A stretch of DNA of 48,712 bases, from NCBI RefSeq assembly GCF_030732865.1, contig NZ_JASHKB010000028.1, positions 1 through 48,712 of the forward strand, in the 5' to 3' direction. Shown here in pieces: positions 32,519 through 46,695 of the stretch (positions within the stretch are counted from its first letter, which is position 1; every line of letters begins with the position of its first letter). The position numbers were made by a program, and so were the translations under genes. Under the pieces are notes generated by a model. It saw only the letters and a program-made list of their open reading frames with translations. It did not search any database and had not been told where the DNA came from. This DNA is from Roseitalea sp. MMSF_3546 (GTDB taxonomy: Bacteria; Pseudomonadota; Alphaproteobacteria; Rhizobiales; Rhizobiaceae).

Positions 32519-32938
32519 TCAGGCCAGTTGGTCGGCCGTGGAATAGTGCAGCACCACCGGGATCACGGCGGCCTTCAGGCTCGCCGCGCCCTCGACCGGC
32601 AGGTCCACGGGGCGCGGGGCTTCGGCCTCGACCCAGTCGCAGAGCCCGCCCAGCGTCCGGTCCGCGGCGAGCACCGCGCCGATGCTGGCGGTCAGCGCGT
32701 CGAAGGCGGTGTCACGTGCAGCGCCTTGAACGACCGCCTCGATCTCGGCCCGGTGCTGGTAGTGGTAGCGTAGCGGCGAGAGCGTGACTTCCGGTTCTCC
32801 GGGCTCACCGTCGCGCAGGATCAGCAACCCCTCGGTCGGGACACGCTCGGGCAGCACCTCACCTCGCAGGGCGGTGGCGGGCAGCGCCGAGAGCCGCGCG
32901 TGCAGCGCGGCGAGGATGGTTTCGCGAGGGTTAGGCAT
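32519..32938 (-). CDS. Tail terminator / completion protein
   Basis: This 139-aa protein begins MPNPRETILAALHARLSALP and has LRYHYQHRAEIEAVVQGAA in the middle, a pattern of small tail completion (gpU-like) proteins that cap the tube at the head side. The ATG at 32938 is chosen over one 18 bases upstream because it gives the usual short N-terminus. It precedes the tube gene with a 24-base gap. Upstream, where a head-tail completion gene should be adjacent, a cargo insertion intervenes. Confidence 0.72.
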   Translation of the reverse strand: MPNPRETILAALHARLSALPATALRGEVLPERVPTEGLLILRDGEPGEPEVTLSPLRYHYQHRAEIEAVVQGAARDTAFDALTASIGAVLAADRTLGGLCDWVEAEAPRPVDLPVEGAASLKAAVIPVVLHYSTADQLA

Positions 32939-33081
32939 CGGTCGTTGCTTCGGCATGACTGCCCATGGGGACAGCTTTTATTCCAATTCTCTGGCAGATG
33001 GTTTGGAACTTTGAGTGCGGCGATGAAAGCCTTCGAGAATATTGCACCTAGCTCAAGAGCCGAATGCACTTCGCCACGAAT

Positions 33082-33843
33082 TCAAGTGCTTTCAGATCGG
33101 CCAAAATCGAAAAGTACAGAAGGCAATTCAGCAAAGCTAATATAATCTAGTCCACGCAACGCTGTCTCCAGCTGCTCACCATATATACTCGCCTTTTTTC
33201 CACCAACCTTGCTCTCGATTGCATTTCTCATAGCGAAAGTTGGATAATTCAAATTTGCTAGAAACACGCCGTACTTATACTTAACATATGGAATCAAGAG
33301 ATCACAAGCTTGAGGGGCACGTTTCTTCAAAGTCTGAAATACAGAGTCTAAGTGAGAGAAAGTCGCGATTTCGAATGTTAGGTCGAGATCTCTGGGATCA
33401 TTAATTTGTTCGATAGCCCTTGCACGATCCATCATGATGGAAAGACCATCCACCAAGTGAATATCGAAACTACCCAGGACGTTTGCTATCAACTCCGCTT
33501 GAAGGGGTTCGATATTCCTCCAGATCGACTCAAGCAATCTAAACTCTGCATCTCTGTCAAACCCGAATGAATTATACTGCGCCTCGAGAGTCACCCTAAG
33601 TATTTCTCTGTTACTCAGAGGAACTCTTAGCCTGTGGTTCAAGGTTCGCATTGGCTCGGATTGAACCACACAGAGTAACAGAAACCACTTTTGGCGAAAC
33701 ATTAGGAAAACGCGATGCTTGAAGTGCGAGTCTCGATGTAAAAGGTAGCGTGCCCCAGCTCTGCCCAAGATTGGCAGCTTTAGAGCCATGTACTCATAAT
33801 CGAGTATATAGTTTCGTGATATATACTCAAATACGACGCTCAT
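33082..33843 (-). CDS. Unknown 253-aa protein of the hydrolase cassette
   Basis: I do not recognise a family. The protein is soluble apart from one hydrophobic patch (about 42-62, HRVFLMFRQKWFLLLCVV) that could touch a membrane, followed by mixed helical segments (FRLLESIWRNIEPLQAELIA; LDSVFQTLKKRAPQACDLL). No signal peptide is seen. It starts within the last 4 bases of the hydrolase gene (ATGA), so the two are coupled. Base composition is clearly AT-richer than the flanking tail genes and codon use is different, which marks it as acquired. A partner, effector or sensor of the hydrolase is the simplest guess. Confidence 0.7.
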   Translation of the reverse strand: MSVVFEYISRNYILDYEYMALKLPILGRAGARYLLHRDSHFKHRVFLMFRQKWFLLLCVVQSEPMRTLNHRLRVPLSNREILRVTLEAQYNSFGFDRDAEFRLLESIWRNIEPLQAELIANVLGSFDIHLVDGLSIMMDRARAIEQINDPRDLDLTFEIATFSHLDSVFQTLKKRAPQACDLLIPYVKYKYGVFLANLNYPTFAMRNAIESKVGGKKASIYGEQLETALRGLDYISFAELPSVLFDFGRSEST

Positions 33844-34688
33844 GAGACAAATTCCTGACAGACCTGCAGCACATGACGCCTTTGATTTGACGTTTTCACA
33901 AGCGTTGTGTGGTCTTCATTCTCAAGCGTTTCAAAAATTGGATCTTGCGCAAAATCTGCTACTTCGACAACATTCTCATAGACACCAAAGAATGTTGACT
34001 TGGCCACCAAAAGACTCAGTCTCCCCCGTCGGGCAATCTCAGTATTCGTGTCGGCTTCCAGCGCGGCGACGAACTCGCTACCTGGACTCAAGTCTAGAAG
34101 CACTTGCTTCCTGAAATTAAAAAGATTGCGAAACCATGCCAATAGACTTCCACCGAACCCGCGTGAGATTATATCTTCAGACAGCGTGTGAAGCGAAGCG
34201 CCTTTGTGGGCAGGTGCGAAGAGCACAATCTCAATATCGTCAAACTCCTGAGACTGTCGTTGTGCGAGATCGACGGCGATCCGTCGCATTAGTGCCGCAC
34301 CAAGCGAATGGCAGACAATTAATACACGTTTGTATCTGAAATCTGGCCTTCTCTTTATGAAGTAAAGGTGCTTATTTGCTTGATCCCCAGGTGATGTGAT
34401 GAATTCCCTAAGTATTCCCCCGATAAGTCGCGCAGAAATAAGCGCACGAGACTTTGTGCTGTCATATCCGATAAACAATACGTCGGTATGCTTGAATGCC
34501 ACATCATCGCGTAGCTCCGAAGCAACGTCAAACCAAGTTCCCTCGGCCGTACCAGTGAAGCCGTGAATGAAAACGATCAAATGGTCTGGCAGAGCCTTGG
34601 ACCAGTGCGCCGTTGTCCCCAAACCGCGACCAATCCGGCGGCCTATGAAGTGGTTAGATTCGGTATAGTACTCCATGATGGTGAGCAT
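33840..34688 (-). CDS. Alpha/beta-hydrolase (lipase/esterase fold) cargo protein
   Basis: This 282-aa cytoplasmic alpha/beta-hydrolase has the oxyanion strand-turn LIVFIHGFTGT (about 37-47), the nucleophile elbow VCHSLGAA with Ser128, and a candidate catalytic His260 in ENEDHTTLVK, as in many lipase/esterase proteins. An acid residue between about 200 and 250 is expected but not assigned. Substrate is unknown; phospholipids or thioesters are possible. It is followed by an overlapping unknown gene. Both are AT-rich insertions between two normally adjacent tail-completion genes and are read in the late direction. It is not a virion gene by family; a defence or superinfection role is inferred from position only. 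Confidence 0.8.
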   Translation of the reverse strand: MLTIMEYYTESNHFIGRRIGRGLGTTAHWSKALPDHLIVFIHGFTGTAEGTWFDVASELRDDVAFKHTDVLFIGYDSTKSRALISARLIGGILREFITSPGDQANKHLYFIKRRPDFRYKRVLIVCHSLGAALMRRIAVDLAQRQSQEFDDIEIVLFAPAHKGASLHTLSEDIISRGFGGSLLAWFRNLFNFRKQVLLDLSPGSEFVAALEADTNTEIARRGRLSLLVAKSTFFGVYENVVEVADFAQDPIFETLENEDHTTLVKTSNQRRHVLQVCQEFVS

Positions 34689-34739
34689 GCATCCGTGCGA
34701 TTAAGACATCAATGTCTGGCTCCCCTCGCGACGAGCACT

Positions 34740-35372
34740 TCACGATTTGCATTCCAACCAGTTCGCGACGATCAACCCCGGCACGCTGTCGTGCGCCCGC
34801 GCGGCATCCCGATCCAGATCCAGCCGCTTCGGCAACTTCACCTGGGGCACCAGCAGGAAGATCGGTGCGGTGACCTGGTTGCGGCCGGTCTTCGCGCGCG
34901 ACGCCACCGCCTGACCGCGGGTGTTGATGCGGGCCCGGTCGGCGACGAGCAGGCTCGGGCCGCGGCGCCGATAAACGAAGCGGAGGCGCAGCCCGCGGCG
35001 CCGTTCCCACTCGCCGGGGGTGAGCTTGGCGCCTCGGAGGCCTCGGCCAGCGGCTTCTGTCGGGATCGCGAGCCAGAAGCCGTCCTTCGAGCGGATCAGC
35101 GGGCCGGTGTCGTGGGCGCCGACGATCACCGGGGCCTTGGCCCAGACGAGCGCCGCGGCGTTCAGGCTCTCGCCGGCCTTCGGATAGGTCTGGCTCCGGA
35201 TCGAGTTGACGAGCCGCCGGCCAAGGCCCGCGCCGGTGATCTGGCCACGCCAGGCGGTCTTGAGACCGGTGCCGGCCTCGCGCATGGCGGCGGTGACGGC
35301 CTTCTCCCCGGCCCTCACCTCGGCGGCCATGGCGGCGACGAGGTCGGGCGTGATGTCGATCTTCAGCTTCAT
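34740..35372 (-). CDS. Tail completion protein, DUF6441-like
   Basis: This 210-aa protein begins KLKIDITPDLVAAMAAEVRAG in two overlapping blocks and has SKDGFWLAIPTEAAGRG and VTAPIFLLVPQVKLPKRL, a pattern I associate with DUF6441/HK97-gp10-like minor tail proteins. These act at the head-tail interface. It follows the small connector gene with a 5-base gap. Its C-terminus (NWLECKS) ends close to the start of the inserted hydrolase cassette, so the last residues may have been altered by the insertion. Confidence 0.75.
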   Translation of the reverse strand: MKLKIDITPDLVAAMAAEVRAGEKAVTAAMREAGTGLKTAWRGQITGAGLGRRLVNSIRSQTYPKAGESLNAAALVWAKAPVIVGAHDTGPLIRSKDGFWLAIPTEAAGRGLRGAKLTPGEWERRRGLRLRFVYRRRGPSLLVADRARINTRGQAVASRAKTGRNQVTAPIFLLVPQVKLPKRLDLDRDAARAHDSVPGLIVANWLECKS

Positions 35373-44810: not shown

Positions 44811-45063
44811 TAGGAGTTGCATGAAACGCGGAGCTCTTCGGCCTATTTGAGTATAGTCTAATTGCCTCGAACAGTCGCCGCAGGGCGAAGGACCGTGCGA
44901 TGCTCACCACCGTGAACACCGCGCCCATCTTCAGGTTCTGCGCCAGCGTCGTGTGCAGCCCGAATACCGGGAAGATCAGGATCTGCGTCACGACCGCGAC
45001 GCCGTAGCCGACCGCCACGTTGGCGACGGCCTCGACCAGCGACATGGCCCGGCTCTGTTTCAT
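44698..45063 (-). CDS. DUF7220 family membrane protein with run-on C-terminus
   Basis: Residues 1-70 match DUF7220, a small phage protein with two membrane helices (ANVAVGYGVAVVTQILIF and MGAVFTVVSIARSFALRR). Relatives end soon after RRLFEAIR. Here the frame continues for about 50 basic residues (from LYSNRP on) into the 3' end of the convergent secreted-protein gene. This run-on suggests that the insertion of the + strand cassette removed the original stop. It starts within the last bases of the methyltransferase gene (ATGA-type overlap). Confidence 0.8.
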   Translation of the reverse strand: MKQSRAMSLVEAVANVAVGYGVAVVTQILIFPVFGLHTTLAQNLKMGAVFTVVSIARSFALRRLFEAIRLYSNRPKSSAFHATPTMEKTPIALSGLEGSPRLRQRRRPFRRRLHYTPTRPR

Positions 45064-46391
45064 GCGGCTGCATCCTGCTCCTTCGCGGATAGGTCCAGCC
45101 GCTCGGCCTTTAACCCCGCGAAGGTCCGACCATCGCCGTCGAGTATCGCATCGCGGCCTGTCTCGGCCTGCCAGCGCTCCACGGCGACGTCGACGTAAGC
45201 CGGGCTGATTTCCATCGCGAAGACGCGGCGGCCGTTGGCCTCGCCCGCCATGATCTGCGAGCCCGAGCCCGAGAAGGGCTCGTAGCAGAGCCCGCCACGG
45301 GCGACGTGCTGGCGCATCGGGATGCCGAAGGCGTCGAGCGGCTTCGGCGTGGGGTGGTCGGGGCGCTCGTCCTTGGCGAAGCTGGGCATCTCCCAGGTCG
45401 ACGGCAGCGTCTGCTCGGCCACCTTCGGCGGGCGGTTCGGGCGGCGCCAGCCCATGAAACAGGGCTCGTGCTTCCAGAGGTAGTGCGACCGGGTCAGAAC
45501 CCCGCGGTCCTTCACCCAGATGATCTGCTGGTGGACGAAGGCGCCGGCCTTCTCCCAGCAAGCTTCGAGCATCGCCTGGCGGCGCGAGGCATGCCAGCAA
45601 TACCAAGCCGCATCCTCCGTGATCGCCTCTGCCACGGCGGCGGCGATGAACCCGTCGTAGAGATCGGCCCCCTGGCTCGAGTCGTCCCAGGTGACGCCGT
45701 AGGACTGGCTCCAGTCCTTGTTCCGCGTCGGGTGGTTCGAGCCGTCGTAGTCCACGAGATACGGCGGGTCCGTCGCGAACAGGACCGCGCGTTCGCCATT
45801 CATCAGGCGGCGGACATCGTCGTGGCTGGTCGAGTCCCCGCACAGCAGTCGATGATCCCCGAGGATCCACAGATCGCCCGCGCGCGACGCCGGGTTACGC
45901 GGCGGTTCGGGGATGGTCACCGGCGGCACGGAGCCCCCGGCGCCACCTTCTTCTTCACCGCCCCCGTCCGGATCGAAGGCCAGCAGCTTGTCGAGTTCGC
46001 CATCGGAAAAACCGACCAGCGACAGGTCATAATCGTCTGCGAGCAGGTCCTGCAACTCGGCCGACAGAAGCGCCTCGTCCCAGCTGCCGAGTTCCGTCAG
46101 CTTATTGTCCGCGATGCGATAGGCGCGGCGCTGCGCCTCGGTCAGATGCCCGAGCACGATCACCGGCGCCTCGCTCAGCCCCAGCTGCGTGGCGGCCAGG
46201 ACGCGCCCGTGGCCGGCGATCAGCTCGCCGTCCTCGCCGACGAGGCACGGCACGGTCCAGCCGAACTCCGCCATGCTGGCGGCGATCTTCGCGACTTGGT
46301 CGGCGCCATGCACCTTCGCGTTCTTCGCGTAGGGCTGGAGCTTGGCCAGCGGCCAAGTCTCGATCCGCTCGGGGGCGAAGCTCAACGTCAT
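45060..46391 (-). CDS. ParB-like/DNA methyltransferase fusion protein
   Basis: This 442-aa protein combines an N-terminal ParB/Srx-like domain (IETWPLAKLQPYAKNAKVHG; ELIAGHGRVLAA near 57-68) with a C-terminal SAM-dependent methyltransferase. The catalytic motif TDPPYLVDYDG (Asp208-Tyr211) precedes the SAM-binding FSGSG (373-377), the order of beta-class N4-cytosine/N6-adenine enzymes. No restriction partner adjoins it, so it is an orphan phage methylase, likely protecting phage DNA or timing packaging. The ATG at 46391 is chosen at the start of homology; an upstream start at 46463 adds 24 unrelated residues. Confidence 0.92.
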   Translation of the reverse strand: MTLSFAPERIETWPLAKLQPYAKNAKVHGADQVAKIAASMAEFGWTVPCLVGEDGELIAGHGRVLAATQLGLSEAPVIVLGHLTEAQRRAYRIADNKLTELGSWDEALLSAELQDLLADDYDLSLVGFSDGELDKLLAFDPDGGGEEEGGAGGSVPPVTIPEPPRNPASRAGDLWILGDHRLLCGDSTSHDDVRRLMNGERAVLFATDPPYLVDYDGSNHPTRNKDWSQSYGVTWDDSSQGADLYDGFIAAAVAEAITEDAAWYCWHASRRQAMLEACWEKAGAFVHQQIIWVKDRGVLTRSHYLWKHEPCFMGWRRPNRPPKVAEQTLPSTWEMPSFAKDERPDHPTPKPLDAFGIPMRQHVARGGLCYEPFSGSGSQIMAGEANGRRVFAMEISPAYVDVAVERWQAETGRDAILDGDGRTFAGLKAERLDLSAKEQDAAA

Positions 46392-46695
46392 GGGCGGGTG
46401 GTTTCCGTCGATCAGGTGGATGCCGGCCGGACTCCGGACTCCGGATGCCTCGCCGGACTCCACGCGGGGTCCAGCGGCATTCGGGGTATCCGGCCCAAAG
46501 GCCAGCGTTCATTGGGGTTCGTGCGGGTGGCGGGTGGCTCCGGCTTCCGGGTGGCTTCCCAAAAATCCGGCCCTGACGCTGGCGAAATGCCGAGCCAAGC
46601 CCGCCAGCATACGCAAGTCGCCCGGAAGGAACCGCTTTTAGCTAGAAGCGGGTCTACCGTAGCTCAGTTAACTTTGGTCAGCTGAAGAGAGGAAA
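46392..46695. other. Intergenic stretch with tandem CCGGACT and a stem-loop
   Basis: No convincing gene is seen in these 304 bases. The part next to the methyltransferase holds three close copies of CCGGACT. A CCGCTT-8 nt-AAGCGG hairpin (46632-46651) lies near the end of the repeat-protein gene and might terminate its minus-strand transcript, although no T-tract follows. Confidence 0.4.

Follow-up and report, generated by a model that had tools for sequence, protein, structure and literature searches.

What function is served by two overlapping, low-GC genes that lie inside the tail operon of an alphaproteobacterial prophage, and do they belong to the phage or travel as its cargo? The locus is found in Roseitalea sp. 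MMSF_3546 (assembly GCF_030732865.1), where positions 1 to 48,712 of contig NZ_JASHKB010000028.1 were analyzed; this 48,712-nucleotide stretch is referred to here as the window. Its structural block is of prophage type, lies on the minus strand and comprises terminase, portal, a fused major head-protease gene and tail genes. A sequence-only reading of the window had placed the two genes between a DUF6441-like gene and the tail terminator gene and had noted that such a coupled enzyme and partner, as cargo, have the pattern of phage-borne defense or superinfection-exclusion systems. The placement was confirmed: the two genes occupy the whole 1,801-bp gap and are co-directional with the tail operon.

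32519..32938, minus strand: tail terminator gene, the downstream border (phrog_4204, E 9.7e-43; ORF readable from 32956)
32939..34739, no strand assigned: entire cargo, 1,801 bp, 47.0% GC, from the DUF6441 stop to the tail terminator start
33082..33843, minus strand: partner protein, 253 aa, no family; its start lies inside the hydrolase stop (4-nt overlap)
33840..34688, minus strand: hydrolase, 282 aa, DUF676/PlaB-like serine hydrolase (ORF call and Pfam)
34740..35372, minus strand: DUF6441 tail-completion gene, the upstream border (PF20039, E 3.9e-51; phrog_6367)

The two proteins of the cassette

The terminator start at 32938 is the methionine used by the relatives of this gene, as determined by comparison, and with this start the gap is exactly 32939-34739. 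GC content is 48.7% in the hydrolase gene and 43.6% in the partner gene, versus 68.9-72.2% in five further phage genes that were measured, and GC at third codon positions is 0.50 and 0.45, respectively, versus 0.86-0.93 in the same five genes. A search of the stretch between DUF6441 and the hydrolase gene revealed no sigma-70-like site; promoter-like matches on the cassette strand occur only within genes and near the end of the cargo. This result and the shared orientation with the late tail operon count against a defense role, and expression of the pair in the lysogen is hypothetical. Outside the structural block, on its terminase side, the window also encodes a ParB-like domain fused to a DNA methyltransferase (45060-46463, minus strand; phrog_498, E 5e-127).

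The hydrolase matches the Pfam families DUF676 (PF05057; E 4.9e-7, 29.9 bits against a curated cut-off of 20.3) and Abhydrolase_6 (E 3.9e-6, 28.1 bits, cut-off 26.3), and belongs to a serine esterase/phospholipase-like family. Its genome holds a single copy, which is also the only PF05057 match there. The lipase/esterase-type active site noticed in the sequence-only reading is indeed present, with an intact VCHSLG elbow (Ser128) and the histidine of DHTTLVK (His260), and it is conserved: Ser128, His260 and Asp249 are invariant in an alignment of ten rows that includes the relatives, and position 238 (Glu238) reads as E or D in all ten. Glu238 and Asp249 are both candidates for the catalytic acid. 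The profile of the enzyme found a sole PDB match, the phospholipase PlaB (6zth; E 6.2e-6, profile positions 28-165 of 274), and phmmer with the single sequence against the PDB returned chance-level matches only (best E 0.032). Peak 19-residue hydropathy is 1.36 in the hydrolase and 1.35 in the partner, so a membrane segment is not suggested in either by hydropathy; the enzyme is probably cytosolic.

The partner has no Pfam match at E<=1, the lipase chaperone family included, which bears out the earlier description of a second gene without recognizable family. AlphaFold predicts an all-helical protein at low confidence (pLDDT about 45), and the two models generated (pLDDT 45.5 and 50.8) are too poor for a fold search. 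Partner homologues on their own were found neither in IMG/VR, plasmids and INPHARED nor in 150 related genomes besides its own, and a pattern scan of the genome collection, which reaches close relatives only, found none standing alone. Net charge lies between -9 and -28 in eight of the 11 partners measured, a set that includes the window partner, itself at +1.

A cargo hotspot in the tail operon

The site was surveyed in the best 80 of at least 565 DUF6441 relatives in IMG/VR, ranked by likeness to the DUF6441 protein of the window (L058-L137). A tail terminator was also found in 71 of these 80 loci. Among the nine others, four terminate with the DUF6441 stop, another three extend 69-847 bp beyond it, and two (L082 and L086) continue for 1.2 and 2.6 kb past DUF6441 without a terminator. 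In all 71 loci with both genes, drawn from the best 80 of at least 565, the gap measures 372-3,227 bp (median 1,017, or 1,022 when the borders are drawn slightly differently) and its GC content is below that of the flanks (median difference -0.149). The same 71 gaps fall into 55 DNA clusters, 47 of them singletons, and the biggest cargo ORF runs with the tail genes in 33 loci and against them in 38. Gaps longer than 300 bp occur at this junction in 71/71 of these loci, versus 0/15, 2/32, 2/32, 4/78, 10/66, 1/46 and 10/43 at seven other junctions of the operon that served as controls. Two of the latter, terminator-to-tube (10/66) and chaperone-to-tape-measure (10/43), are possible secondary cargo sites in L058-L137. 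Cargo spans from right behind the DUF6441 stop region to right before the terminator start, and no border motif common to the loci was seen by eye.

The DUF6441/terminator site is a cargo hotspot, a conclusion about which we have practically no doubt, and the check proposed earlier, whether related prophages carry different cargo there, came out positive in all 71 loci, with about 55 kinds among the best 80 of at least 565 relatives. The earlier statement that the flanking genes are normally adjacent stands only in part. They overlap by 4 nt in the isolated phages RcKemmy, RcMeacham and Sc-Yong805-1, the three read of 15 INPHARED records with DUF6441, in each of which the second gene matches the window terminator (E 1e-40 to 1e-43), and they are nearly adjacent in one prophage (L056, 94-bp gap). 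In the closest relatives of the window, however, something always lies between them where both genes are seen.

Within the family to which the window belongs, DUF6441 is present in seven of 199 genomes, its own included. In three of these (G923, G053 and G039) the site spans 1,437-1,499 bp and contains an ArsR-like regulator, a fourth (G031) holds 388 bp of low GC, and a fifth (G896) holds 94 bp. By reading, the ArsR-like regulator is near-identical in L052, L053 and L055 (the loci of the first three genomes) and in the IMG/VR locus L134, where it stands beside an apparent heavy-metal/cation-efflux gene. The remaining genome (G936) has a prophage remnant without a terminator match, in which a low-GC ORF of 306 aa adjoins a DUF6441 stub (L057:3093-4013) and apparent IS transposase genes were read, as if cargo outlives the phage genes.

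From the 71 gaps, 90 cargo ORFs of at least 100 aa were scanned; ORF calling was greedy, and a number of these frames must be antisense or spurious. At E<=1e-3, 27 PADLOC models matched among these 90 ORFs, one ORF each, with several models probably sharing an ORF. Single-ORF PADLOC scans covered 20 of the 90, which leaves several of the 27 models, including PDC-M09A (E 8.6e-17), without an assigned locus. Matches to Csa3, CasR and CARF are, in our judgement, probably cross-matches of helix-turn-helix (HTH) domains. Defense models were traced to six of the 71 loci, and thus to a minority: Aga_Nuclease in L061 (E 4.9e-89), PDC-S31 in L120, a DrmC-like PLD in L125, an mREase_IV-like HNH in L081, QueC (E 1.6e-26) and OGG in L090, and DarT in L112. 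The L112 cargo (L112:3314-4488) consists of a DarT-like toxin gene followed by a NADAR-DarT1 antitoxin (E 9e-83). The L090 cargo (L090:6784-9790) has four genes. One product is small and has the N terminus MGST; another, of 443 aa, resembles nucleoside 2-deoxyribosyltransferases in its C-terminal part (E 5e-4), and the remaining two are QueC-like and weakly OGG-like. PMC13279940 describes an N-terminal glycine start, of the sort found in the MGST protein, for QatB and for substrates of type IV CBASS, and the L090 cargo is possibly a further deazaguanylation-type defense operon. Pfam identified among further cargo three RiboL-PSP HEPN ORFs, GNAT acetyltransferases and one TacA1-type antitoxin, and as non-defense cargo a cation efflux protein, ArsR, two SulP permeases, TauE, a glyoxalase, an L,D-transpeptidase and a PLP decarboxylase. 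The majority of the hotspot cargo has no assigned function.

Recurrence of the enzyme-partner pair

A search for the hydrolase in 385 genomes of the class matched one, its own. With a loose profile, 29 of 398 genomes in a phylum sample matched, its own included; the other 28 matches (frames of 342-912 aa) stand outside the count of pairs given below. Hydrolase relatives were found on plasmids of S. meliloti (pSymA), Rhodococcus and Pseudarthrobacter, and at nine loci of the genome collection, one of which is the same Pseudarthrobacter plasmid. Eleven distinct relatives were read (L003, L004 and L036-L044, L042 being the same record as L005). Plasmid matches with E above 1e-3 (Streptomyces, Priestia, Vibrio, Sphingobium, Sulfitobacter and Halocatena) were left out of the count, as was a second Rhodococcus plasmid (H44). 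The 11 relatives come from Rhizobiales, Actinomycetota and Acidobacteriota, and three of them are on plasmid records, some beside conjugation genes. No relative of either window protein was found in IMG/VR or among INPHARED phages.

A same-strand partner frame lies directly 3' of the enzyme in all 11 relatives; the check proposed in the sequence-only reading, whether the two genes co-occur in unrelated contexts, thus came out positive. This frame encodes 262-325 aa in ten of them and 727 aa in L044, where it continues into a permease; by chance, so long a downstream frame would be expected at 0.013-0.030 per locus (six loci measured). Enzyme and partner overlap by 4 nt in nine of the 11, although in L036 and L039 this depends on an internal GTG start rather than the first start of the frame, and the other two have gaps of 1 and 3 nt. 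We conclude that this is very probably a real two-gene module. The enzymes are alike among themselves (window versus L036, 42%, 2e-73), and the partners form groups: the actinobacterial members are mutually similar, and those of L037, L038 and L040 are chained by similarity. Between the window and L036 partners the likeness is marginal (5/300 in global shuffles), and BLAST, shuffles and hhalign (E 0.19-0.7) gave no significant homology across groups; it is therefore the arrangement that is conserved and not the partner sequence.

In the S. meliloti copy that was read, an in-frame stop interrupts the enzyme early. All 34 Sinorhizobium records examined for it match the enzyme only piecewise or partly, which is consistent with interruption as seen in the one read, and in 22 of 35 records the partner is present in a single piece, 318 residues or longer. 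When the S. meliloti copy is compared with that of S. kostiense, the partner has a dN/dS of 0.035/0.118 = 0.30 and the C-terminal part of the enzyme one of 0.019/0.146 = 0.13. The L040 enzyme has a shortened start. Among the relatives, 19-residue hydropathy reaches 1.62-1.77 in the L037, L040 and L043 enzymes and in the L040 partner.

Several of these loci have features of their own. The L041 partner gene (L041:6771-7559) encodes a C-terminal LuxR/GerE HTH domain (E 1.6e-12). In L037 (L037:3293-7598) the pair forms the end of a three-gene lipase operon with overlapping ends, in which the upstream gene encodes a patatin-like protein of 881 aa (Pfam E 1.1e-5, just under the cut-off). A ResIII-type helicase is encoded upstream of the pair in L038. 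In L044 (L044:1916-5963), a Pseudonocardiales MAG, the pair lies by reading within an apparent sugar-type ABC transporter operon. The weak Sulfitobacter match, which is located in an ABC-three-component operon, had suggested such a system; this candidate was dropped because no ABC ATPase gene adjoins the window pair.

Possible functions and comparison with known systems

Neither window protein matched a family of PADLOC-DB 2.0.0 at E<=1. Seven of eight enzyme and partner proteins tried from the relatives likewise gave no PADLOC match, and the eighth, the L041 partner, matched only through its HTH domain; the scan of neighbors for defense genes covered L037 and L038. The earlier view that the locus has the pattern of phage-borne defense or superinfection exclusion is supported in part, by the site, some of whose cargo matches defense or toxin-antitoxin models, but not by any database match of the pair itself. 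The view that neither gene looks like a virion protein was borne out, the pair behaving as cargo by its recurrence and by the variable site: its homologues are not always found as conserved virion or lysis genes of this site, and the pair does co-occur elsewhere. Taken broadly, an anti-phage or closely related conflict function, toxin-antitoxin activity included, is fairly probable; defense by the pair would be one form of it.

The best explanation, which we advance tentatively, is that the pair encodes a partner-controlled, lipid-directed effector of abortive type. The cassette would be one accessory unit in the cargo hotspot of a temperate siphophage-like lineage, and recombination within the conserved flanking genes may exchange such cassettes among prophages. 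The partner would be translated from the mRNA that it shares with the enzyme, its translation coupled to that of the enzyme, and probably binds the enzyme, keeping it off or folded. An invading phage might then disturb the partner, freeing the enzyme to attack membrane lipids, so that the infected cell would stop. A conserved enzyme beside a partner that has diverged beyond recognition is what one would predict for a partner exposed to a trigger that changes.

The pair could instead be a toxin-antitoxin (addiction) module, with the hydrolase as toxin and the mostly acidic partner as antitoxin or immunity protein, that stabilizes plasmids or prophages rather than responding to infection. The adjacent genes with their 4-nt overlap, in the window and nine of 11 relatives, are coupled as in such modules; plasmid records account for three of the 11, some beside conjugation genes; of the 11 partners measured, that of the window among them, eight have a net charge of -9 to -28; one partner (L041) carries a DNA-binding domain; and S. 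meliloti has apparently lost the enzyme and kept the partner. The window partner is near neutral, however, and typical antitoxins are smaller than this protein, and we regard this alternative as unlikely, although a serious one, with the qualification that toxin-antitoxin and defense functions overlap in practice.

Unlikely too is a lysogenic-conversion (moron) pair, in which an esterase, with a chaperone dedicated to it, modifies host lipids or detoxifies esters and plays no part in defense. The gene order, with a helical and fast-evolving helper behind a lipase, is reminiscent of lipase-foldase pairs, the hotspot also holds metabolic and metal-resistance cargo, and the L044 pair was read inside a sugar ABC operon; against this, no TM-like segment was seen in the window pair by hydropathy, and the partner lacks a Pfam family, the lipase chaperone included, at E<=1. 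A decaying random insertion without function, to which the low GC and the uniqueness of the cassette among the sampled prophages might point, is improbable: both frames are open, the active-site pattern is intact, and the dN/dS values of both proteins in S. meliloti/S. kostiense and the arrangement conserved across phyla contradict it, although these last two points concern the relatives, and decay of the window copy itself keeps a small probability. That the genes are a virion assembly, tail or lysis pair of the window phage, as their co-directional position in the tail operon might suggest, was rejected as extremely unlikely, given the absence of relatives from IMG/VR and therefore from the site in the 71 loci, the empty site with overlapping flanking genes in three isolated phages, the three relatives on plasmids and the deviant GC.

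The partner-controlled effector remains our preferred reading, although the missing PADLOC match, the lack of a promoter-like site ahead of the hydrolase gene, the mixed and largely unassigned cargo of the site, the poor structure models and the absence of significant homology among partner groups speak against it. In its fullest form, the pair would be an undescribed two-gene anti-phage system, in which a partner evolving past recognition holds a conserved lipid-attacking effector, and plasmids and prophages would have carried it into three phyla. Its hotspot would likewise be undescribed and would belong to a widespread prophage lineage of Alphaproteobacteria, with the remaining, mostly uncharacterized cargo as a source of further systems; this we consider possible but doubtful as a whole. 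The module recurs and is small enough for a one-plasmid test. Protection by the pair would add a lipase effector under a fast-evolving controller; without such protection, the site would still supply many uncharacterized cargo genes to test. Because the hotspot borders are defined to the codon, its cargo can be collected through a search for the two flanking tail genes, and since the site holds many different borrowed genes, some of them weapon-like against other viruses, it looks promising for new ones.

In the 5.39 million papers searched, which mostly excluded subscription papers and preprints, the word DUF6441 was not found, and among the matches listed neither the DUF6441/terminator hotspot nor the hydrolase-partner pair was recognized; the accessible part of one prophage paper (PMC12429752) has no bearing on the site. 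Several described systems share features with the locus. DUF676 (PF05057) proteins and PlaB (6zth) have in common with the window enzyme the alpha/beta-hydrolase profile, the GxSxG elbow and a C-terminal histidine, whereas the window enzyme is about 280 aa long, aligns to PlaB only over profile positions 28-165 of 274, and is of a kind followed by a coupled partner frame at every locus read. CBASS phospholipase effectors (CapV) are lipid-directed, as is proposed for the effector of the window pair; the pair differs in having no adjacent CD-NTase, its immediate neighbors being tail genes, and no patatin match by Pfam. Lipase-foldase systems (Lif, Pfam Lipase_chap) likewise place a helical helper after the lipase gene, whereas the window partner has no Pfam match at E<=1 and no membrane anchor was seen in it.

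Tha, according to PMC11087260, is a prophage HEPN defense gene of S. aureus triggered by tail proteins; it too is a defense gene carried as prophage cargo, but the protein is unrelated to the window pair. The closest parallels to the site are the fixed hotspots of antiviral cargo in P2- and P4-like phages, as described in PMC9122126 and PMC9519451. Those hotspots share with the present one a fixed spot between conserved phage genes and different small cargo, partly anti-phage, in each relative; they differ in that the present site belongs to another phage lineage with other hosts and lies inside a tail operon, between DUF6441 and the terminator. The structural genes of the window match phrog_4523 (major head and protease protein) and phrog_4271 (tail protein), which are probably not P2 families, and the window prophage would appear not to be P2-like. 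Fixed cargo sites in P2 and P4 have already yielded defense systems, and the present site is one for an alphaproteobacterial prophage lineage. Phage cargo hotspots are of a known kind; the DUF6441/terminator site and its hydrolase-partner module are, provisionally, new.
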